A stretch of 27,283 nucleotides of DNA from a virus: positions 1 through 27,283 of the IMG/VR virus record IMGVR_UViG_3300030406_001803; one strand, given 5' to 3'. The notes beneath the pieces were generated by a model. The model made no database searches, was not told the origin of the DNA, and saw only the letters and a list, made by a program, of their open reading frames with translations. Shown here one piece after another: positions 4,657-24,864 of the stretch (the first letter of the stretch is position 1; every line of letters begins with the position of its first letter). A program made the translations under genes and the position numbers.

Positions 4657-6180
4657 ATGGCAGGTACAAGTATTTATAGTGTTTACAGACGCACAGCTCG
4701 TGCCGCTGCTAAACAACAAGTTGTAAAGAAAACTTCAAATATTGATATAGAAAAAGCGCGAAAAAATTTTGCGTATTTTTGTGATGTTGTAGGGGGAAAA
4801 CCTCCAGCAAAACATCATATGGAATGGCATAAATATTTATGCACTGGAGATGATAGTGTTTGCTTACGTGGAATAGCCGGACCTAATATTGATATTCTTG
4901 CTCCCAGAGGATCTGCTAAATCTACCGTTTTAGGTTTGTATACAGCTTGGGCTATAGGCGTACATGCTCTTCATAAATTACCTTTAAAGATTTTATACAT
5001 TTCATATACAGTTGATGTTGCTAGACCAAAGAGTGCAGCAATAAAAAGAATTATAGAAGAAAGTAAAAATTATAAAGAAATTTTTCCTACAGTAAAAATA
5101 GCTAAAGGAATTAATTCTAATGAATATTGGAGTATTGATTGGAAATTTGCAGGAATAAAATCTACCGGAGAAGAAGAATTTAGTGTTTGTTGTGCAGGAT
5201 TAAAAGGTGCTGTTACATCTAAAAGATCACATCTATGTATTATTGATGATGCTATAAAAAGTTCGGATGATATTAAAAACAAAGATATTCGTCAAGCTAT
5301 GGAAGATAACTGGAATGCCGTTATTGTTCCTACTATGTTCGAAGGTGCTAGAGCTATTTGTTTAGGTACAAGATTTCGTCATGATGATATACACGCTAGA
5401 GCCTTTTTGCCTGCCAATGGATGGACACAAATAATACAATCGGCAATTACTGTTGACGAACAAGGAGAAGAGATATCTTACTGGCCGGAGATGTGGTCAC
5501 TTAAATATCTAGAAGAGAGAAGAAGAGTTGCTCCAGTAGCATTTAGTTTTCAATATCAAAATCAAATTGTACAAACAAGTGAACTTTCTTTATCTCCAGA
5601 TTTAATTGTTAAGGGAACTATCTCTACAGAGTTTGATGCATTAGGTGTGGGAGTTGATTTATCTGCTGGAGTTAGAGAACAAAATGATTATACAGTTTTT
5701 GTTATGGGTGGACGAGTTAGAGATAAAATTCATATTATTGATTGTAAAAGAGTAAGAGTTATGGGTAATTTAGAAAAATTAGAATTATTAATGGAAATGA
5801 TGGAAGAATGGGGAGTTGTTTATAAAGATGGTAAAAGTTATTTTCCTACAGGAGCTGCAACTCACATTTGGTCTGAGGCAGTTGCATATCAAGCTTCTTT
5901 AGAGGCTGATTTTAAAAGAATATGTTTAGGCGATCATGGATTACATAATTTAATTTGGCATCCAGTAAAAGGATTTAGAGGAGATAAAGTTGCACGATTT
6001 AGAGGGATTATGGGATTATTTGAGCAAAGAAAAATTATTTTTAACAAGTTTAGAAAGTTTGGACCTCTTACTGATGAGATAGTAAATTTTGGTGTTAGCT
6101 CACATGATGATTGCGTAGATGCATTAGTTTGGCTATGTAATGGGTTAATGACTCGCGGAAAACTTGAGTTAGAGTATTGA
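4657..6180 (+). CDS. terL: Terminase large subunit (packaging ATPase and nuclease)
   Basis: 507 residues, a normal TerL length. The ATPase half has a Walker A of the form PRGSAKST at residues 83-90, Walker B LCIIDD at 193-198 and a coupling-type motif CLGTRFRHDD at 235-244. The nuclease half shows the RNase H-like acidic set: D334 in GVGVDLS, E407 in IWSEAV and the HDDCVDAL cluster at 483-490 (D484/D485/D488). TerL docks on the portal, drives DNA into the prohead and cuts the concatemer. The gene follows the candidate small subunit by 24 nt and precedes the portal with one small gene between. No SD is seen before the ATG (CTACGTTC), as with many genes here. Confidence 0.95.
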   Translation: MAGTSIYSVYRRTARAAAKQQVVKKTSNIDIEKARKNFAYFCDVVGGKPPAKHHMEWHKYLCTGDDSVCLRGIAGPNIDILAPRGSAKSTVLGLYTAWAIGVHALHKLPLKILYISYTVDVARPKSAAIKRIIEESKNYKEIFPTVKIAKGINSNEYWSIDWKFAGIKSTGEEEFSVCCAGLKGAVTSKRSHLCIIDDAIKSSDDIKNKDIRQAMEDNWNAVIVPTMFEGARAICLGTRFRHDDIHARAFLPANGWTQIIQSAITVDEQGEEISYWPEMWSLKYLEERRRVAPVAFSFQYQNQIVQTSELSLSPDLIVKGTISTEFDALGVGVDLSAGVREQNDYTVFVMGGRVRDKIHIIDCKRVRVMGNLEKLELLMEMMEEWGVVYKDGKSYFPTGAATHIWSEAVAYQASLEADFKRICLGDHGLHNLIWHPVKGFRGDKVARFRGIMGLFEQRKIIFNKFRKFGPLTDEIVNFGVSSHDDCVDALVWLCNGLMTRGKLELEY

Positions 6181-6407: not shown

Positions 6408-8657
6408 ATGAGTGAAAGTAATAGCAAAACTGCCTTAGAAGATATGATCAAATCGGTCATAAATAGAGATGGCCGTGGTTCAGCAGATACTATGCTGTTA
6501 AGTTCTCATTTATCCCAAATGAAAATGTTTGGGATTAGGCAGGGAGTTGAGTTTTATCCTCAGCAAGATAATTTAGGAACTCAAAGATTTGATTTTATTC
6601 AACAAGTAATAAAATTTAATCAGCTTGATGCAAGACTTGATGCAATATGGGATAGATTTTTAGCATATGGAAAAGGATTATTTTATATAAGACCTACAGA
6701 AAAATCTTATAGAATTTATTGGTTTAATAAAGACGCATATAGGACTTATTACACACCTGAAGGAGATCTACAGGAAGTTATTATTATTTATCCTTACAAA
6801 GTAAAATCTTCTAAAGGTTTTGCCGGAGTTGGTTTAAATACAGATAAAAGATATATGAGATTAAAAATTACTGCTAAAGAAATAGAAGAAATACATACTG
6901 AACAAGAAATAACTTTTGAACAAGATAATATAAATTTTGCTGCTTTTGATAAAAAAATCGTAGAAAATTCTATGGAATTTATTCCATGTGTTGAAGTATT
7001 TAATAATCCGGATGCATTTGGAACTGATGGTTCAGGTGAGTTTGACTTCTTAGCAAATCAAATATTAGCTCACGATGAAATGGTAAAAAATATTAGAGCT
7101 AATTTATCATTCTTTGGTAATCCAACTTTACTTTCTTCTAGACCCAAACAAGATATTGTTGAGAGCGATAGTGAGACAGCTCAACGTCCTAGTATATCTA
7201 GTCAGTCCGGTTTTCAATCTGATGTTAACTTATTTAGTTCCACATATAAACAAGATCCTATAACAAGACAACAACCTGGATATACTGGCAAACCAGGAAG
7301 TGGAATGAGAGTTCCTAGAGTTATTGCTAATTTAGAACCTTCAGATCGTGTTGGATTTATTACACCTAATGCTGTAAGTTCTGATCAGGCTCGATTCTCT
7401 GAACAACTAAGAAGTGAAATCAGATTAGCTTTAGGTGGTATAGATGATTTAAGTATTACTAATGTAACGGCTACAGAAATTAAATCTGCTTATGGTCGGG
7501 TAAGTGCAACAGCCAAAAAGAAATGTTTACAAATTTATCAATATGGAATATGTAAATGTTTCGAATTAATTATTTTTCAAGAAGAACAAATTTTTAGAAA
7601 ATCCTTGGCTTTTGCTTCAGGAATAAAATATCCTGTTTTACCAGAAAATATCGAAGATCCAAAAGCACTTGAAAAATACGATAAACAGAAAGCAAAGTAT
7701 GAGCAAAAATTACAAGCTGCTGTTGACGAAGCAGTAGAGAAAAAAGAAATACCTGACGGGGTTTTAGGCTTAATACCTGATGGGGATAGAACTGTTTTAT
7801 GGAGATGGATGGGACCTGTTTATGAGGACACTGCTCAAGACAAACTTAATCAATCTATCTTTACTCGAAATCTTCAAGAATTAGGCGTTGATAGCATAGA
7901 AGCACTGAAGTATTTATTCCCATCTAAAACGGACGATGAGATTGCTGCAATGCTCTCTGGTTTTCCCTTCCGGATGGTTGGAGAAGTACAGAGGGCATAT
8001 TCGCAGTTTATTGATTTAATAAATCAAGAGATGCGAACACCACATCCGCAGCAACCGAATTTACCGATGGCTGCAGACCCAAGATTGGATTTAACTCCTT
8101 TCTTATATCGAACATTAGAAAGTTTACAAAAAGAGGTAACCTATGCAGGCCGATACCGCAGCGCCGACCCAATCGGCACCCCAAGTATCCCAGACCCAGC
8201 CGACCAGCTACGTGGCTCAGACAGCGGCGCAGGCACCGGCCGTTTCAACGAATTCCCAATGGGTGGCTCCATCCCAACCAGTGGCGGCACCAGCACCACA
8301 AGTGCAAGCGCAGATGGGGATCAACAACGGATACAACCCTACTCAGTACAGCCCCCAGCCACAACAGGCGGCTCCACAAGCGGAGAACCCATACAAGGAC
8401 GCATTCAACAGGGTGGTAGGACTCCTGAGTTCACCAGTTCAATTCCCGTTCCAGGGTCAACAGTCGATTCAGAATCAACCAATCGACCAAACCAATTACG
8501 CTTCCCAAACACCAACCCAATACAACAACGCGGTAGCGCCGACTTATACGCCTTCGACCAACAACAACCAGGCATACTCCAACAGTTATTCCCAAACTTC
8601 TCAGGAGATAACCAACGAGCAGTTAATGGCAAACGGGGTAAGCGAGGCAAGTCTTGA
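6408..8657 (+). CDS. Portal protein with long low-complexity C-terminus
   Basis: 749 residues. The first 570 look like the portals of marine phages: a helical start (FDFIQQVIKFNQLDARLDAI), then WDRFLAYGKGLFYIRPT and YRIYWFNKDAYRTYY, a HDEMVKNIRANLSFFGNPTL segment, and TATEIKSAYGRVSATAKKKC. The portal is the dodecameric ring at the capsid vertex through which TerL packs DNA. Residues 580-749 are Ser/Gly/Pro/Gln/Arg-rich and probably disordered, ending GKRGKRGKS. This whole tail is encoded on top of the 5' part of the next gene, read in another frame. No SD before the ATG (CTAATCTA). The core is confident; whether the long tail is functional is inferred from the frame staying open for 171 codons. 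Confidence 0.88.
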   Translation: MSESNSKTALEDMIKSVINRDGRGSADTMLLSSHLSQMKMFGIRQGVEFYPQQDNLGTQRFDFIQQVIKFNQLDARLDAIWDRFLAYGKGLFYIRPTEKSYRIYWFNKDAYRTYYTPEGDLQEVIIIYPYKVKSSKGFAGVGLNTDKRYMRLKITAKEIEEIHTEQEITFEQDNINFAAFDKKIVENSMEFIPCVEVFNNPDAFGTDGSGEFDFLANQILAHDEMVKNIRANLSFFGNPTLLSSRPKQDIVESDSETAQRPSISSQSGFQSDVNLFSSTYKQDPITRQQPGYTGKPGSGMRVPRVIANLEPSDRVGFITPNAVSSDQARFSEQLRSEIRLALGGIDDLSITNVTATEIKSAYGRVSATAKKKCLQIYQYGICKCFELIIFQEEQIFRKSLAFASGIKYPVLPENIEDPKALEKYDKQKAKYEQKLQAAVDEAVEKKEIPDGVLGLIPDGDRTVLWRWMGPVYEDTAQDKLNQSIFTRNLQELGVDSIEALKYLFPSKTDDEIAAMLSGFPFRMVGEVQRAYSQFIDLINQEMRTPHPQQPNLPMAADPRLDLTPFLYRTLESLQKEVTYAGRYRSADPIGTPSIPDPADQLRGSDSGAGTGRFNEFPMGGSIPTSGGTSTTSASADGDQQRIQPYSVQPPATTGGSTSGEPIQGRIQQGGRTPEFTSSIPVPGSTVDSESTNRPNQLRFPNTNPIQQRGSADLYAFDQQQPGILQQLFPNFSGDNQRAVNGKRGKRGKS
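8131..8137 (+). promoter_or_regulatory. SD that fixes the scaffold start inside the portal gene
   Basis: AAGAGGT ends 5 nt before the ATG at 8143, one of the clearest ribosome sites in a window where many genes have none. It lies within the portal coding sequence. It supports real initiation at 8143 and thus true two-frame translation downstream. Confidence 0.7.
8143..8657 (+). other. Dual-coding overlap of portal and scaffold genes
   Basis: Both frames stay open for 171 codons. By hand count about 24 of 172 scaffold codons end in T inside the overlap, against about 36 of the next 78 after the portal stop at 8655-8657. In this frame relation a T-ending scaffold codon followed by AAN, AGN or GAN would create a portal stop, so the change in codon use fits selection to keep both frames open. 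The two encoded stretches are both low-complexity and likely disordered, as is common in overprinted segments. Confidence 0.75.
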
Positions 8658-9135
8658 AGTAATTAATCATTTTGGTGCTGATGCTCCAGCAGTTTTAAAT
8701 AACTATGCAGTACAGCTAGAAGATTCATTAATTCAATCAAACGCTAACTTACAGGAAGCTGTTAATCTTCTTCAGGAGATGTCTACTGAGCACAAAGCTT
8801 ATGAACAGATTCTTACTGATCCAGATGTATTAGCAGATTACACATGTGAGTTCTTCGGTCCTAATGGTCCTTATCCAGTAGAAGAAGAGCAAGCAGGTTA
8901 TGCTAATCAAGGTGTACAGCAAAGACCTTTAGCAGGTCAGCCTCAAGCTCAGGCTCCTTCACGTCCTGAAATGCCTGTTCCTCCACAGCCACAAGCTCCT
9001 AGAAATGCAGGAGACTTTTGGAATGACTTTGGAACTGCGGCAGACCGTGACCCACAGAACGCATGGAAATATCTAAATGCAGCACAACAGAATCCTGAGA
9101 TCTTCCGTCAGAAGCTCTTAGTAATGGATTCCTAA
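8143..9135 (+). CDS. Probable capsid scaffold / assembly protein
   Basis: 330 residues. The first 170 are Gln/Ala/Pro/Asn-rich and probably disordered. Residues 155-245 form what looks like a helical region (LEVINHFGADAPAVLNNYAV, ending in a FFGPNGPYPVEEE motif), recalling the assembly proteins that sit between portal and capsid in cyanophages. The end is a compact helical piece (PEIFRQKLLVMDS), as expected for a C-terminal capsid-binding helix of a scaffold. Scaffolds template the prohead and then leave. Position between portal and capsid supports this. The 5' 515 nt are shared with the portal gene, in the frame one nucleotide downstream of it. Confidence 0.7.
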   Translation: MQADTAAPTQSAPQVSQTQPTSYVAQTAAQAPAVSTNSQWVAPSQPVAAPAPQVQAQMGINNGYNPTQYSPQPQQAAPQAENPYKDAFNRVVGLLSSPVQFPFQGQQSIQNQPIDQTNYASQTPTQYNNAVAPTYTPSTNNNQAYSNSYSQTSQEITNEQLMANGVSEASLEVINHFGADAPAVLNNYAVQLEDSLIQSNANLQEAVNLLQEMSTEHKAYEQILTDPDVLADYTCEFFGPNGPYPVEEEQAGYANQGVQQRPLAGQPQAQAPSRPEMPVPPQPQAPRNAGDFWNDFGTAADRDPQNAWKYLNAAQQNPEIFRQKLLVMDS

Positions 9136-9954: not shown

Positions 9955-11100
9955 ATGTTTATAGATAACGATTTTCCGAAGCTGCTGGGTGCCGAGTTAT
10001 ATAGACCACATCCTGCGTATATCGTAGAAATGGCAACAGAGCCAGTGGTTGTACATGACTTCACCAAGCAGCCAGGTCAGACCGTTCAGTTAGATCGCTA
10101 CAGATTCTTTGGCAATCCTGGAACTAAGACTTCAAGAGAGAGGACTCAGGACCAGACAATTGGCACAGCAAATAGCAGATCTATCGTAAAGGACAAAGTA
10201 CTTGTATCTCTTAGGGAATATACAGGTCCTGCTGACCCTAACAACTCAAATCTACCTAGCACATTCAAAATTGCTAGAGAAACCCTAATGACAGCTCAGC
10301 GTCTGCTTCTTGACACTGGAAACTTAAATATGTTCCATCAGTCAATTGGTTCGCTTACACTGTTGGATGACTATAGAAGATGGAGAGATAGAGTATTCCT
10401 TGATGAGCTATTCAAATCTGAAGCTCGTGGTCAGTCTTCTGACACACAAGGTGGTTACTACTATCCAAACACAAAAACTAAGTCAAACTCTACTACTCTT
10501 AATGCATATACTGCTACAGAGTACGCATCAGAGCGTTTCAAGTTCAACGTTAAGACAGACCTTCTAGAAGTAGTTAAGAGCTTAAGAAAGAGACACGTAC
10601 CAGTATTCGGCGATGGTTACTATCGTTGTATAGCTGATCCTTCATTCATGAAAGATCTACGTGCAGATCAAGGATTCAGAGAAGTTGCAAGATACCCAGG
10701 AATGGGTCAAGGCAACCCATTAATGCAAGCAGGTGCTCCTAACCAAGCAATCTACCAAGGTGGACAGTATGGTCAGGCACAGTTTGTTGCAGGTGAGCCA
10801 GTTATGCCATCTGGATTCGTATTTGAAGGTGTAAGATTCTTCGAATCTACAAACTTCCCATCTAAAACAATTACGGTCGATATTGGTGATGGTGGCGGAG
10901 CTTCCTCAAGAACAACTCCTGCTGGACTATTCTTTGGTCCTCAGTCAATTGGTGTTGGTATTGGTGGTCCAAATGCTCAAGTTTTAATCAATAACAATGA
11001 TGATTTTTCCAGATTTATCATTCTGATTTGGCAGCTATATGCTGGCTTTGCGAACTTGAATAAGGACTTCATTACAACAGCCTTCACAATTACTGAATAA
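9955..11100 (+). CDS. Major capsid protein
   Basis: 381 residues. The start (FIDNDFPKLLGAELYRPHPA), the basic E-loop-like region about residues 50-75 (FFGNPGTKTSRERTQDQTIG), a central helix with RRWRDRVFLDELF and the end FSRFIILIWQLYAGF fit an HK97-fold capsid protein as found in marine phages. Codon use here has more C-ending codons (TAC, AAC, TTC) than neighbours, which is usual for a very highly expressed gene. Position right after scaffold and before an abundant accessory protein and a strong terminator agrees. It forms the icosahedral shell around the portal. I call the family from overall resemblance and context, not from a search. Confidence 0.85.
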   Translation: MFIDNDFPKLLGAELYRPHPAYIVEMATEPVVVHDFTKQPGQTVQLDRYRFFGNPGTKTSRERTQDQTIGTANSRSIVKDKVLVSLREYTGPADPNNSNLPSTFKIARETLMTAQRLLLDTGNLNMFHQSIGSLTLLDDYRRWRDRVFLDELFKSEARGQSSDTQGGYYYPNTKTKSNSTTLNAYTATEYASERFKFNVKTDLLEVVKSLRKRHVPVFGDGYYRCIADPSFMKDLRADQGFREVARYPGMGQGNPLMQAGAPNQAIYQGGQYGQAQFVAGEPVMPSGFVFEGVRFFESTNFPSKTITVDIGDGGGASSRTTPAGLFFGPQSIGVGIGGPNAQVLINNNDDFSRFIILIWQLYAGFANLNKDFITTAFTITE

Positions 11101-12038: not shown

Positions 12039-12479
12039 ATGTTATATCAGTACAAATTGACCGGTGGACTTGTAGAAAAAATAAGCCAACATGACGAAGG
12101 TGTTTTTATGTGTGTTGATGCTAATGAGGAAGTTCTTTATATTGAAGAAAGTATGTTAATTCCACATCTAGATGCAACAACAGAAAAAATTAAAAATGAA
12201 GAGAAATTTACTCAAGAGTTAAAGGCAGACGGAGTAAAACCTGCTAAGCCTACAACAAAAGAAACTTTTCCTATAGATAGAAGAATAAATATTAATAATG
12301 CTAGTGCTAGACAAATAGCAGATGCCCTACCTGGAGTTGGTTTGAAAACAGCTAGAGATATAAAAGATTTTCAAACTACTTTATCAGGAGAAAGATATAC
12401 AAGATTAGATCAACTTCAATCAATAAAGAGAGTTGACTGGGATGAAATATTTAAGGCAGACTTAGTAAGAGTAGACTAA
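12039..12479 (+). CDS. ComEA-like helix-hairpin-helix protein in the head-tail cluster
   Basis: 146 residues. The N-terminal 50 look like a small beta domain (LYQYKLTGGLVEKISQHDEG), then a charged linker. Residues 83-113 carry a helix-hairpin-helix of ComEA type: ININNASARQIADALPGVGL with the hairpin LPGVG at 97-101, then KTARDI. In that family the motif binds DNA backbone without sequence preference. The last 30 residues look like a second HhH-like half (YTRLDQLQSIKRVDWDEIF). Place after the capsid genes suggests a head-completion or connector protein touching packaged DNA. The motif is clear; its role in the virion is inferred. Confidence 0.75.
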   Translation: MLYQYKLTGGLVEKISQHDEGVFMCVDANEEVLYIEESMLIPHLDATTEKIKNEEKFTQELKADGVKPAKPTTKETFPIDRRININNASARQIADALPGVGLKTARDIKDFQTTLSGERYTRLDQLQSIKRVDWDEIFKADLVRVD

Positions 12480-13880: not shown

Positions 13881-14687
13881 GTGTCAAGTAGTAGTTCAAA
13901 CAAACAACCATTAATGGTAGATCGTCCGGCGACGACCTCTACATTATGTACAGTTGCATCAGGTCAATCTTTTTTAACAAGTTTGATACCTACAGCTGTT
14001 GGTAATGCCACTAAAGTATTTGATGTTGATTCAGCCTTAGCAGATACTGCTATTAGTGGGGCATATATTGATGAAATATGGTTTACATATAGTAAAAGAG
14101 TTATCCAAAAAATGGATGCTGTTGATACTCAGACTTCTACTTTTTCAGCGTCTGGTACGACTTGTACTATTACAATGCCTGTAGGGGTTTTACATAATTT
14201 AGAAATAGGTCAAAAATTATTTATAGATTTTTCTGGTTACAACACAGGAACTGTTCCAAAGGATGATACTTTTACTGTTGCAGATACAGTAAATTTCACT
14301 TCTACAACTTTTGATATAACTATTCCAAATATACCTAGTGGGACTATTACTGGAACTTCTACTCTTTCACTACCCATAGATTTTTGTTTTTATCTTGTTA
14401 ATACTGGAACTGTTACAAATATAACCCAGTTTTCTCCCTTGTTTGTACAGAGTATCCCTCAAGTAGCTGAGAATCAAATTCTGAGCACTACTCTAAAAGA
14501 AACACTTCCTTTAATAAATCATCCAACAGTTCAAGCTGGATCTAATTTTGGTAGTGCAAATAATGAAATTGCTCCAAAACAAAGAGGTTTAATGCTTAGA
14601 AGAGGACAAGCTTTGTTTGTTGCAGCAAGCGGACCTACTGCTTTAACAAATGGCTTCTATTGTAATGTTCAAGGTGGATTCTATTAA
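13881..14687 (+). CDS. Tail/virion protein with one beta module shared with the next gene
   Basis: 268 residues from a GTG start; an ATG 11 codons later (13914) is a possible alternative and neither has a strong SD. Residues 1-80 resemble a small beta domain. Residues 88-163 are a beta module (TCTITMPVGVLHNLEIGQKL, then a FIDFSG turn and FTVADTV) that matches three modules in the following 755-residue protein: T-x-T-x-x-x-x-H-x-L-x-x-G-x-x-x-x-x-D-F. The C-terminus (APKQRGLMLRRGQALFVAAS) has the flavour of phage tail surface proteins. It lies 5 nt before the next gene. Probably a tail or baseplate component; function not known. Confidence 0.7.
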   Translation: MSSSSSNKQPLMVDRPATTSTLCTVASGQSFLTSLIPTAVGNATKVFDVDSALADTAISGAYIDEIWFTYSKRVIQKMDAVDTQTSTFSASGTTCTITMPVGVLHNLEIGQKLFIDFSGYNTGTVPKDDTFTVADTVNFTSTTFDITIPNIPSGTITGTSTLSLPIDFCFYLVNTGTVTNITQFSPLFVQSIPQVAENQILSTTLKETLPLINHPTVQAGSNFGSANNEIAPKQRGLMLRRGQALFVAASGPTALTNGFYCNVQGGFY

Positions 14688-14692
14688 ATAAA

Positions 14693-16960
14693 ATGCCTTT
14701 TGATGTTAACGGGTTTGATAAGACATCAAAATTTAATTTTAAAAATGAATTTAAATCTTTTAATAACAAACCTAAAGTACCAAGTGTAAATAAAGGATCT
14801 GATGGGCGTGAGTTAGAGAGTGAGATTAATTTCTATAATAAAGATTCTTTATGGACGAGGTGGAGAAGGGGATATGAATTATATACAATTATTCAAAATC
14901 TATTAGGATCAAAATTTAAAGAAAGAGATACAAGAGGAGATTATCGTTTATTCTTTACTTTTCAACAGTTTCCTGGAGTTTTTATACCTGCTCGTATATT
15001 TACATTTCCATCATCCAATCAAGAATTAGGTGAACATATTGTTGGAATGAGAGATACAGATGGATTTAGTTTTTATGAATTTGGTTTACCAATATTAGAA
15101 GTCAGATATTTAGCAGATGCAGTAAATGCATCATACAGTCAAAGCGGAACATTAATAACTGTGACCAAATCTGATCATGGTTTATTTCCAGGTGACAATG
15201 TGTTTCTTGACTTCTCAACCGGAAGTGCAGTTGATGCAACTTTGACAATTGATAGTAAAACTCAAAATACATTCACTGTAACTGCTAGTGGTTCTTTAAA
15301 TACTGCAGGAAATGTTACTTATTACAACTCAACATCATTCAACGATACAAGATGGAGATTTGTGCGGGTCAAATTACAAAGTTTACCTACTGAGGTAGGT
15401 TTTTTAAAAGATGAAAGAATGACTGACAGAATTATAGAAAGAGATCCTGGTGTAGCCTCTACATATTCAAGATCAGGATCTACAGTTACGATAACTTGCA
15501 GTTCCAATCATGGTCTTTCTACTGACAACAAAGTTTTTCTTGATGTATCTACTGGTAATGTTCCTTCAGGCAGATATACTATTACAGTTTTAAATACTAC
15601 TCAATTTACTGTTAGGACTCTTACTACAGGAACAACTTCAGGTAATTTAACTTTATTCAGATTAATTAAGGGCTTTAGATACGATGATTATGTAGGATAT
15701 ACCGTAACTGGTTCTGATACATCAACTAATGAGATAATTTTTGAAAAAAAAGATAGTTATGGAGCGAAAACTGTAGATACAATTGCTAAAACGACTGTGC
15801 CTGCACATAGAGGATTTGCTGTTGGAAGATTTTTGTCAACAGAATTAAGATGGAATTGTTCTTGTCAAGATTTTTCCCGTCGTGACAGCTATGATTTATT
15901 TAGTAATTTAAACAATAGAAGGTTTCCAGTAACTTCTATAAGAGATGTAAAACCTGGAAATGTTATAGAAAATGATGGAACATTAAGTGATAGAAGAGAT
16001 GATCCAGGTGTATTTAGAGATTTAGGTTATGTGACAATAAATAATTTTTATCAACTACCTGAATATGAAGATAAAAGACAAGATTCTTTTCAAAATCTTC
16101 AATATCATCAGCTCAGATGGTGCAAACATATCTATGCAGCCATGTGGTCTTTAGTTCATGATGAAGGTAATGAGCCTTTAAAATTAGCAGCAAAATATGA
16201 AATTACTGATATAAATATTACTGTTGATTTTGAGAATCATGGCTTAGAAAAAAATCAAAAAATTCAATTAAATTTTACAAGTGGAAATGCAATTTCTGGT
16301 GAATATACAATAACCAATGTTCCTAATCCTAATCAATTTGTTGTAGTATATCCATTTGAGTTAAATACTAGTGGATATGTTACTGTAGAGAATTTAAAAA
16401 AACATGAGTATGTTAACTCATGGCTCTTAGAACCTAGCGATAAACCTATAGGTAGAGGATTAAAGTATTGGGAAAAAATATGGCCTAAAGAACAACAAAG
16501 ACTTAGAGAGTCAGCAGAAGTTTTTGCTTTATATAATCGCACAACAAAATGGGAAGGTAATAAAAACGTTATTGGTAATTTTAATTTACCTCAAAATATT
16601 GCTAATTTTGATCCCTCAGTAATTGCTATGAATCTTACTGACAGTATTAAAAGAGATGAAAAAGGTAATTTAAATAGATCAGGTAATCCATTAAATATTA
16701 CTAATAGATTAATTGCGATGGTAAATAAACTATTTAATAAATCTCCAACTACACTTGATGATGTTAAGTTTGGTATTGTTAACAGACCATTAGGAGAATT
16801 TGTTGACTCTTTTGAGACAGGGTTTTTACAAGCAGGTGAATACTTAAATGGAGAAAAACTTGAATTAGCTACAAATACTAGTAATTTAGATGCAGGAACA
16901 TTTAGTCCAGAGACTGCACAAGATACAGTTGTAGATGGTGGACTATACATTAATAGTTAA
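14693..16960 (+). CDS. Large tail protein with three beta modules and a split SWIM-like motif
   Basis: 755 residues. The N-terminus is basic and hydrophilic, then an aromatic folded part (residues 55-145, WTRWRRGYELYTIIQNLL). Beta modules lie at about 148-211, 258-322 and 500-565, each with an HGL turn and a (V/I)-x-L-(D/N)-(F/V) strand. Between the second and third lies C389-S-C391-Q-D-F and, 85 residues later, C477-K-H479-I-Y-A. That is the CxC...CxH pattern of a SWIM zinc finger, with a long insertion. The end (residues 590-755) is helical and polar. Size and place before the fibre genes suggest a tail hub, baseplate or tail-spike-like structural protein; a peptide family name cannot be given. 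Confidence 0.72.
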   Translation: MPFDVNGFDKTSKFNFKNEFKSFNNKPKVPSVNKGSDGRELESEINFYNKDSLWTRWRRGYELYTIIQNLLGSKFKERDTRGDYRLFFTFQQFPGVFIPARIFTFPSSNQELGEHIVGMRDTDGFSFYEFGLPILEVRYLADAVNASYSQSGTLITVTKSDHGLFPGDNVFLDFSTGSAVDATLTIDSKTQNTFTVTASGSLNTAGNVTYYNSTSFNDTRWRFVRVKLQSLPTEVGFLKDERMTDRIIERDPGVASTYSRSGSTVTITCSSNHGLSTDNKVFLDVSTGNVPSGRYTITVLNTTQFTVRTLTTGTTSGNLTLFRLIKGFRYDDYVGYTVTGSDTSTNEIIFEKKDSYGAKTVDTIAKTTVPAHRGFAVGRFLSTELRWNCSCQDFSRRDSYDLFSNLNNRRFPVTSIRDVKPGNVIENDGTLSDRRDDPGVFRDLGYVTINNFYQLPEYEDKRQDSFQNLQYHQLRWCKHIYAAMWSLVHDEGNEPLKLAAKYEITDINITVDFENHGLEKNQKIQLNFTSGNAISGEYTITNVPNPNQFVVVYPFELNTSGYVTVENLKKHEYVNSWLLEPSDKPIGRGLKYWEKIWPKEQQRLRESAEVFALYNRTTKWEGNKNVIGNFNLPQNIANFDPSVIAMNLTDSIKRDEKGNLNRSGNPLNITNRLIAMVNKLFNKSPTTLDDVKFGIVNRPLGEFVDSFETGFLQAGEYLNGEKLELATNTSNLDAGTFSPETAQDTVVDGGLYINS

Positions 16961-21681: not shown

Positions 21682-24600
21682 ATGCCATATATTGGAAATA
21701 ATATCAGATCTGCTGATGATTACAGACTAATAGATAATATAAGTAGTTCCTTTAATGGCAGCACAACTTCTTTTGCCTTACAGGTAGGTGGTTCTTCGCC
21801 TGTTCCTTTCCCAAAAACTCCACAACAATGTTTAATTTCTGTTAATGGTGTAATACAACAACCTGATCCAACAGGTAGTTCAGGATTTACATTATCAGGA
21901 ACGAACATAGTATTTAGCTCTGCTCCAACCAATGGGCATTCATTTTTTGGAATAATATATGCAACAGCAGATTATTTAAATGCAGGTGGAACATTCCCTG
22001 ACGGAGCAGTTGGTAACCCATCTATCACGTTCACAAACGACGATGATACTGGTTTTTATAAAAAAGGATCAGGTGCAGTAGGTATTGTTTCTAATGCTGT
22101 TGAAATTGCAAGTGTTGATGGTAATGGTTTAACAGTTACTAGTAAAGACGCAACAATTAACTCAATCACTATTGGTAAAGGAGCAAACTCTATTTCTGGT
22201 AACACTGTTCTTGGAGAGGGTGCTTTAGATGCTTCTGTTTCTGGTGGATCTAATACTGCTATCGGTAAAAGTGCTTTAACAACTTGCACATCTGGTGGTT
22301 CAAATGTTGCAGTTGGTTTTGAAGCAATGAAACTAAACACCACTGGAGCAACTAATGTTGCTGTAGGTGAAAGAGCAATGCAACAAAATACTACAGGTAA
22401 TGAAAATGTAGGTATTGGACAGTTTGGATTACAAGTTAACACAACAGGTGATAGAAATACTGCTGTGGGATATGCTGCTTTAGATGCAAATACAACAGCC
22501 GACAACAATACAGCCATAGGTGCATTATCTTTATCAGCAAACACAACTGGAACAAATGGAACTGCTTTAGGATCTAATGCTCTAGCTGCAAATACTACTG
22601 GAAATTCAAACACGGCTATTGGTGTGAACTGCATGCTAGTGAACACAACAGGTCAAGATAATACTGCTGTTGGAAGAACCTCTTTAGACGCTAACACTAC
22701 TGGTTCAAGTAATGTAGCTATTGGTAATGGAGCATTGAGTGAAAATACAACAGCAGATAAGAATGTAGGCATTGGTCAAAATGCTTTACATGTAAACACA
22801 ACTGGAACAGATAACGTAGCGGTTGGTGCTAATGCTTTAGATGCTAATACTACGGCTTCAAATAACACAGCAGTTGGAGACAACAGTTTAGGTGCAAACA
22901 CTACAGGCACTAGAAACAGTGGGTTAGGTGCTTTATCTCTACGGGATAACGTAACAGGAAATGATAATACCGCTGTAGGTTACTTCTCTCTGTTGTCAAA
23001 CACAGGATCTAGAAACACAATGGTTGGATCTTTTTCTGCTTATCAAACTACAGGGGGAAATAATACAGGGATTGGTTATGCAGTTTTGCAATCTAATCAA
23101 AATGCAGGTAACAACACTGCTATGGGAGATTCTGCTTTAACTACAAACACTACAGGAGCTAGTAACACTGCCATAGGTTCAAGTGCTTTACAAAATAATA
23201 CTACTGCTGGTAATAATACAGCAGTTGGTCAATCTGCATTAGCAGCAAACACAACTGGACAGAATAACGTAGCTTTAGGCACTTTTGCTTTAGATGCTAA
23301 TACAACAGCAACTCAAGGTACGGCAGTTGGTTATAACGCATTAGGAGCTAATACAACTCAAGGATCAAATTGCGCTTTTGGTGCATTTGCTTTAAGTTCT
23401 AACACTACAGGTGGTATTTGTGATGCTTTTGGTCAAAATGCGTTATTAAGTAATACAACTGGTGGATCAAACTGTGCCTTTGGATTTGAGTCACTACAGA
23501 ATAACACGACAGCTAATAATAACTCTGCTTTTGGATTTAGAGCATTAAAAGCAAACACACTGGGGCCTAATAATGTAGCTGTAGGTAGAGAAGCATTGAA
23601 GGCAAATACTACGGCAGCATATAACGTAGCTGTTGGAGATCAAGCTTTAATTTCAAATACAACTGGAACTCAAAATAATGCGATAGGTGGTTTGGCATTA
23701 TTTTTCAACACTACTGGAAATAATAATATTGGGATAGGTATAGAAGCTGTAAAACTTAATACAACTGGATCAAATAATATAGGCATAGGAGCAGGTGCAT
23801 TAGATGCTAATACGACAGCAAGTGGTAATACTGCTGTTGGTAGTGCAGCTTTAGGTGCAAATACTACAGCTTCTTATAATTCAGCTTTTGGTAAAGATGC
23901 TTCAGCAGCAAACACAACTGGAACTCAGAACGTAGCGGTAGGAGCATTTGCTTTAGATGAAGTTGCAACAGCAAGTAATAATGTTGCGATTGGTTATGGA
24001 ACTTTAAGTGCTGCTTCTTGCGGTTCAAGCAACACTGCTGTAGGTAATACTGCTTTATTAAATAATGTAGAAGCTTTCAATACTGCTGTTGGTGACAGTG
24101 CATTAAAGACTAATACTAGTGGTACATTTAATACAGCAGTCGGAACTTTTACGCTAGATGACCATTCTACAGGAAATAATAATACTGGCTGTGGATATGC
24201 TGCTTTAACTAATAGCACTACAGGAGCTAGTAATACTGCGGTTGGTAGTCTTGCTTTATTAGAAAACACAACTGGATCTAGTAATACAGCTATTGGTTTG
24301 AGCGCAGGGAAATCTGTTACAACTGGCCATAGCAATGTTTTTGTTGGTGTCGCTGCTGGTCAAGATCAAATTACTACAGGGCAAGATCAATGTTTTATTG
24401 CAAGAAGTAATGATGCTGGAGGTAATGCTACTGTTTGGCTTTATGGTGGTACTAGTGGTCAATGTATTCAGGGTAATAACAGTAGTTCTTGGACAACAAC
24501 TTCAGATCAAAGACTTAAAAAAGATATAGTTACAAATACAGTAGGTTTATCAATAATTGATAACGTAACAGTTAAAAATTTTAAATATAAACAATATTCT

Positions 24601-24864
24601 GATGGTTCTCCTGTTTCTTCTGACGATACAGTGGATATGAGTGAATTTCCTGATGCAGATGGAGTTCATCAAGTTTTAATTGGACAAGGGAAAACAGAAA
24701 CACAAATTGGAGTTATCGCACAGGAATTAGAAGCTGTTGCACCAACGTGCGTAACAACAAATGATAAAGGAGTAAAGACAGTAGATACTGATGAATTGTT
24801 CTGGCACATGTTAAACGCTATAAAAGAATTATCAGCAAAAGTCACAGCCCTCGAAGCTGCTTAA
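21682..24864 (+). CDS. Giant YadA-head-like adhesin/fibre with C-terminal S74 chaperone
   Basis: 1060 residues. Residues 1-95 are an attachment domain (MPYIGNNIRSADDY, SSSFNGSTTSF, LISVNGVIQ) shared with the next gene. Residues 112-170 hold a fibre motif with ITFTNDDDTGFY. Residues 173-883 are 42 tandem units, 39 of 17 and 3 of 16 residues, of the type NTAVGxxALxxNTTGxx, like the left-handed beta-roll of YadA-head adhesins. Residues about 930-1060 are an intramolecular chaperone of the S74 type: TTSDQRLKKDI with the Ser941/Lys946 pair at the known five-residue spacing, and a helical C-terminus ELSAKVTALEAA. The chaperone should trimerise the fibre and then cut itself off just before Ser941. 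Likely receptor-binding. Confidence 0.92.
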   Translation: MPYIGNNIRSADDYRLIDNISSSFNGSTTSFALQVGGSSPVPFPKTPQQCLISVNGVIQQPDPTGSSGFTLSGTNIVFSSAPTNGHSFFGIIYATADYLNAGGTFPDGAVGNPSITFTNDDDTGFYKKGSGAVGIVSNAVEIASVDGNGLTVTSKDATINSITIGKGANSISGNTVLGEGALDASVSGGSNTAIGKSALTTCTSGGSNVAVGFEAMKLNTTGATNVAVGERAMQQNTTGNENVGIGQFGLQVNTTGDRNTAVGYAALDANTTADNNTAIGALSLSANTTGTNGTALGSNALAANTTGNSNTAIGVNCMLVNTTGQDNTAVGRTSLDANTTGSSNVAIGNGALSENTTADKNVGIGQNALHVNTTGTDNVAVGANALDANTTASNNTAVGDNSLGANTTGTRNSGLGALSLRDNVTGNDNTAVGYFSLLSNTGSRNTMVGSFSAYQTTGGNNTGIGYAVLQSNQNAGNNTAMGDSALTTNTTGASNTAIGSSALQNNTTAGNNTAVGQSALAANTTGQNNVALGTFALDANTTATQGTAVGYNALGANTTQGSNCAFGAFALSSNTTGGICDAFGQNALLSNTTGGSNCAFGFESLQNNTTANNNSAFGFRALKANTLGPNNVAVGREALKANTTAAYNVAVGDQALISNTTGTQNNAIGGLALFFNTTGNNNIGIGIEAVKLNTTGSNNIGIGAGALDANTTASGNTAVGSAALGANTTASYNSAFGKDASAANTTGTQNVAVGAFALDEVATASNNVAIGYGTLSAASCGSSNTAVGNTALLNNVEAFNTAVGDSALKTNTSGTFNTAVGTFTLDDHSTGNNNTGCGYAALTNSTTGASNTAVGSLALLENTTGSSNTAIGLSAGKSVTTGHSNVFVGVAAGQDQITTGQDQCFIARSNDAGGNATVWLYGGTSGQCIQGNNSSSWTTTSDQRLKKDIVTNTVGLSIIDNVTVKNFKYKQYSDGSPVSSDDTVDMSEFPDADGVHQVLIGQGKTETQIGVIAQELEAVAPTCVTTNDKGVKTVDTDELFWHMLNAIKELSAKVTALEAA
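22198..24330 (+). repeat. 42 tandem ~51-nt repeats in the first adhesin
   Basis: Encodes residues 173-883. The unit consensus is N-T-A-V-G-x-x-A-L-x-x-N-T-T-G-x-x. Three units (two around 22975-23070 and one near 24060) are one residue short. 39x17 plus 3x16 equals the 711 residues counted. DNA units differ mainly at the two variable xx positions and at third bases. ALDANTT units recur about every nine or ten units, hinting at block duplication. Confidence 0.92.

Follow-up and report, generated by a model that had tools for sequence, protein, structure and literature searches.

SWIM domains are nucleic-acid or protein binding modules in which a CxC pair is followed by a CxH pair; in the eight domains that we read, 6–8 residues separate the two pairs, and a proline usually follows CxC. 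Literature searches for SWIM fingers of phage tails or virions, and for the motif itself, brought up no paper devoted to them among those listed. Metal sites of another kind are described for the tail hubs of lambda (gpL) and RcGTA, in which, according to the available parts of the sources, four cysteines hold an iron-sulfur cluster (PMC10721106, PMC7296036), and the function of the cluster is given there as still to be characterized (PMC10721106). Synechococcus phage S-EIV1, with which the present locus is compared below, is a freshwater cyanopodovirus that forms a lineage of its own, according to the available part of PMC8557907.

The S-EIV1 lineage and the position of the gene

We analysed a stretch of viral DNA of 27,283 nt (the window), in which the open reading frame at positions 14693–16960 (+ strand) encodes a protein of 755 amino acids (P0001) belonging to a family of the S-EIV1 lineage. 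The portal-type protein of the window is 52% identical to a protein of S-EIV1 (KJ410740.1), which was the sole matching record for it among the 50,697 records of the phage collection searched. Nine window proteins match S-EIV1 proteins with the order kept, the last two being encoded by the partner gene that begins at 13881 and by the 755-aa gene. The window is a member of the Synechococcus phage S-EIV1 lineage.

The 755-aa gene is placed after the terminase, the portal, the major head protein and the conserved partner gene; the latter lies upstream in all distinct family loci with enough sequence among the matches listed (259/259). According to PHROGs, the genes that follow the 755-aa gene are tail-fibre-like; none of them has a counterpart among the S-EIV1 proteins compared. 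The partner gene and the three beta modules of the 755-aa protein are located as follows.

13881..14687, + strand: conserved upstream partner gene, 268 aa, 30% identical to S-EIV1 P0003
15110..15337, + strand: beta module 1, about residues 140–215, endosialidase-barrel or E1-FCCH-like, absent from S-EIV1
15440..15664, + strand: beta module 2, about residues 250–324, absent from S-EIV1
16172..16396, + strand: beta module 3, about residues 494–568, absent from S-EIV1

All three modules match the endosialidase beta-barrel and E1-FCCH families (PF12195, PF16190), which are unrelated to the metal motif discussed below. The Pfam endosialidase beta-barrel match to the window protein has an E value of 2.2e-05, itself below the cut-off of that family, and the modules find matches in endosialidase barrels of phages and in many fibre-type phage proteins. 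The 755-aa protein is probably a tail or adsorption protein, as its gene position and beta modules suggest, with the caveat that the S-EIV1 branch lacks the modules that point to the tail.

Several further observations concern the same block of genes. The window terminase (4657–6180, 507 aa) has no insert and matches the S-EIV1 terminase on either side of an intein; the S-EIV1 large subunit (KJ410740.1, 54080–56620; L284:6081-8621) carries the Pfam Intein_splicing domain at residues 202–526 (E 1.4e-11). The major head protein of the window (9955–11100) matches S-EIV1 at 71% over residues 1–378 of 381, all within a single frame. At the matching S-EIV1 stretch (L082:768-1892, KJ410740.1 about 60859–61983), a reverse-strand gene is annotated in the record, together with the C-terminal part only, and this stretch is likely misannotated. 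The portal-type gene, which runs to 8657, shares its last 515 or so bases with a 330-aa open reading frame that lies in a different frame (8143–9135). In S-EIV1, too, a counterpart with 40% identity extends back across the portal gene; this may be overprinting or simply a long overlap, and the likeness could partly stem from portal homology. A 146-aa protein of the structural block (12039–12479), 45% identical to an S-EIV1 protein, shows a helix-hairpin-helix motif below the cut-off (E 4.1e-05). Further downstream, the window encodes a 1060-aa fibre-like protein (21682–24864) with a terminal Peptidase_S74 endosialidase chaperone domain.

Conservation and spacing of the CxC and CxH pairs

The initial annotation had pointed to a CxC and a CxH word 85 residues apart in this protein, and both are indeed found. 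C389-S-C391-Q-D-F begins at 15857 (codon of C389, 15857–15859) and C477-K-H479-I-Y-A at 16121 (codons of C477 and H479, 16121–16123 and 16127–16129), with residues 392–476 between them.

15857..15865, + strand: first ligand pair C389-S-C391, Cys in 281/281 covering distinct sequences among the matches listed
15866..16120, + strand: linker, residues 392–476, 85 aa, predicted pLDDT mostly below 50, length compared by family spacing counts
15995..16021, + strand: conserved linker element RDDPGVFRD, residues 435–443, from family alignment columns
16121..16129, + strand: second ligand pair C477-K-H479, Cys and His in 277/277 covering distinct sequences among the matches listed

The S-EIV1 homologue AHV82237.1 (KJ410740.1, 67456–69039; 527 aa) is 27% identical to the 755-aa protein over 215 columns (pairwise E 2e-14). 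It belongs to the same family and occupies the same gene position, so that the 755-aa protein is related to S-EIV1 by both sequence homology and synteny. Whereas AHV82237.1 lacks the three beta modules and has a linker of 149 residues instead of 85, it keeps both motif words, CSCQDFTRRD and LRYCKHIYA, despite the different spacing. On comparison of the sequences, the beta modules appear to have been gained or lost around the core, which was left undisturbed. Nine of the ten matching records, all but S-EIV1, hit the beta modules only (residues 139–259) and were not counted as family.

Family members were collected by six scans of IMG/VR (the best 80 of 109, 256, 559, 464, 209 and 336 relatives, so that remoter members are under-sampled) and one scan of GTDB genomes, to which the window and S-EIV1 were added. 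At least 418 family loci gave 282 distinct sequences, none contained in another. The gene family is carried by hundreds of environmental contigs, with one isolate, S-EIV1, in the phage collection searched. Two bacterial MAG contigs from GTDB also carry it (L202, QQUU01000043.1; L203, RFNU01000051.1); in L203 a partner-like gene lies directly upstream of the family gene, and the two therefore have the appearance of phage contigs that ended up in MAG bins. AHV82237.1 gave no match to PHROGs except one at E 0.32, and sequence searches of the PDB gave no convincing relative.

Non-conservation of the cysteines or the histidine would have spoken against a metal site. Among the 282 distinct homologues from the matches listed, positions 389 and 391 are Cys in all 281 covering rows, and positions 477 and 479 are Cys and His, respectively, in all 277. 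These counts were read from alignment columns; regular expressions overlook variants such as DFTHR. In an earlier alignment of 225 distinct rows among the matches listed, 41 of 414 well-covered columns are invariant, and the four ligands are the only Cys or His positions that never change. Since the patterns of the other scans include parts of the motif, one scan was repeated with N-terminal patterns only; this motif-independent scan (the best 80 of 464) gave 53 distinct rows, with the ligands present in 52/52 and 45/45 covering rows. Chance or recent common ancestry was considered as the source of the conservation and rejected, because both synonymous codons are used at each ligand (for C389, TGT in 155 and TGC in 69 of the 225-row set) and the branches are only about 27% identical.

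The spacing of the pairs takes two ranges among the matches listed: 85 residues in 109 distinct sequences, which make up the window branch, and 142–173 in 168. Elements common to both branches are seen in the alignment of the linker, namely FPxT, KPG, RDxPGVFRDxG and an R before CKH. The description of the motif as split by an 85-residue insertion had to be abandoned: relatives in the matches listed have an equal or longer linker, never a shorter one. With 85 as the shortest family spacing and conserved elements within the linker, we regard the latter as a part of the family core that varies in length and not as a recent insertion.

Comparison with SWIM fingers and predicted structure

SWIM domains and the 755-aa protein are alike in the order of the pairs, CxC and then CxH, and in the CSCxDF- and CKHIxA-like words. 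The wording "exactly as in SWIM proteins" of the initial annotation goes too far: the words are close, but the 755-aa protein has CxCQ with a gap of 85, and the family 85–173, where SWIM domains have CxCP with 6–8. A further difference is that the protein is encoded in a phage structural gene block.

The Pfam SWIM profile (PF04434) scores 10.9 bits on the window protein (E 0.36), below the gathering score of 19.6 bits, and covers the CxH half only (residues 476–486). Even so, no other Pfam family is touched as often: at E<=10, SWIM is reached in 58 of the 80 members scanned (best E 0.069). When fragments were scanned alone, SWIM matched the CxC half in 0/3 cases and the CxH half in 1/3. We also devised a two-half score from eight SWIM domains and applied it to 1,542 other open reading frames for comparison. 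According to this score, the window protein reaches 16.2 bits and the family median is 14.8, against a maximum of 11.6 for the other frames; S-EIV1, with 11.4, falls within their range, and 28 of the 1,542 reach the score of the lowest full-length family member. The CxC half alone is weak (family median 2.8 bits, 95th percentile of the other frames 4.3), and the two-half signal comes mostly from the CxH half. The family thus has the conserved CxC...CxH pattern, while its score stays below the Pfam threshold and its gap is long, and for these two reasons we describe the site as working like a SWIM finger and do not call the protein a member of the SWIM family.

Structure prediction with AlphaFold2 places the two pairs at the ends of regular elements.

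15830..15859, + strand: predicted beta-hairpin (strands 380–383 and 386–389) ending in C389, AlphaFold2
16124..16162, + strand: predicted helix 478–490, starting inside CxH, AlphaFold2, with a counterpart helix 437–445 in the model of the divergent member L161

The model of the window protein (80 sequences, mean pLDDT 64) has the two strands before CxC and the helix from CxH. The model of L161 (41 sequences, mean pLDDT 61) has strands 281–284 and 287–290 and the helix in the same relation; it should be noted that the two alignments have members in common. Hairpin then helix is the order in both models, a tentative likeness to SWIM in view of the low pLDDT after CxC. Within the window model, pLDDT is 80 for the hairpin block 381–390, 36 for the block after CxC and about 57 for the CxH block, and it is mostly below 50 in the linker.

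Fold searches gave no informative match for the metal region, the ranges given falling on the beta modules or, for the core model, mainly on residues 115–288 (Z up to 5.7); the Foldseek matches come without ranges, and one Foldseek search gave no match at E<=0.001. As to a SWIM fold in the metal region, these searches are neutral. Overall, the putative SWIM-like metal site of the initial annotation is partly supported, by the invariant ligands and by the hairpin-then-helix order in two low-confidence predictions, but not in its wording as an insertion.

A candidate zinc site and alternative readings

According to our preferred reading, which we consider about evenly poised between right and wrong, the 755-aa protein would be a structural component peculiar to this lineage, likely of the tail or adsorption apparatus, in which CxC and CxH meet on one zinc and brace the fold. 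The CxC at the end of the hairpin and the CxH at the start of the helix would come together in the folded chain, one zinc would be bound by the four ligands in the fashion of a SWIM finger, the linker of 85–173 residues would loop out as a conserved arm, and the metal would anchor this arm, together with the helix, on the beta core. We infer that the two halves meet, that they bind a metal, presumably zinc, that the protein is located in the virion, and that the site braces and does not bind DNA.

The same ligands could be contributed by neighbouring subunits, with one zinc shared between the CxC of one and the CxH of the other, stapling a ring or trimer, and with the linker as a swapped arm. 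A linker of this length, in which conserved patches occur and little order is predicted for the monomer, would be suited to fold as an arm onto a neighbouring subunit; the order of hairpin-CxC and helix-CxH is, however, explained equally well within one chain, and we consider this reading unlikely. Its more elaborate form appears somewhat less likely still: in a split SWIM-like zinc staple between subunits, each metal would link one subunit's hairpin with the helix of its neighbour, spanning the long conserved arm. Such a staple would lock the tail or adsorption ring of this widespread lineage and possibly act as a switch that is released when the phage meets its host.

An iron-sulfur cluster or iron in place of zinc would have a precedent at the tail tip, in the four-cysteine clusters of the lambda gpL and RcGTA hubs (available parts of PMC10721106 and PMC7296036), with which the 755-aa protein shares a conserved, here putative, metal site in a probable tail protein. 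The hubs, however, have an Fe-S cluster on four cysteines at short spacing and lack the CxC and CxH words. The cysteines of gpL (Cys173, 182, 205 and 212) are spread over about 40 residues, according to the available text, whereas the present family has three invariant cysteines and one histidine, not four cysteines, in words close to SWIM, and no hub family occurs among the 18 Pfam families listed for 80 members. We therefore regard iron as improbable, and it is the ligand set together with the similarity of the words that leads us to zinc.

The residues could also be conserved for a disulfide, a catalytic role or an assembly contact that involves no metal. Three cysteines could include a disulfide, and the models are of low confidence; against this, exactly four Cys and His residues are invariant in 277/277 rows, as CxC plus CxH, each half set in a word that resembles those of SWIM, and a metal-free role seems to us quite improbable. 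Least probable of all is binding of DNA or RNA, for example of the genome end in packaging or ejection, a role that would fit the binding functions of SWIM domains and the invariant basic residues around the ligands (R379, R386, R397, R475 and K478) but sits poorly with a gene among tail-region genes and with the exposed-type beta modules of the window branch.

Taken together, the zinc-brace reading offers a concrete, testable candidate metal site in a family encoded within the structural gene block that S-EIV1-like phages conserve. A CxC/CxH pair of the SWIM type can stay invariant while the spacing between its halves changes two-fold, and since profiles built on a short gap miss pairs with long spacing, other split fingers may be overlooked.
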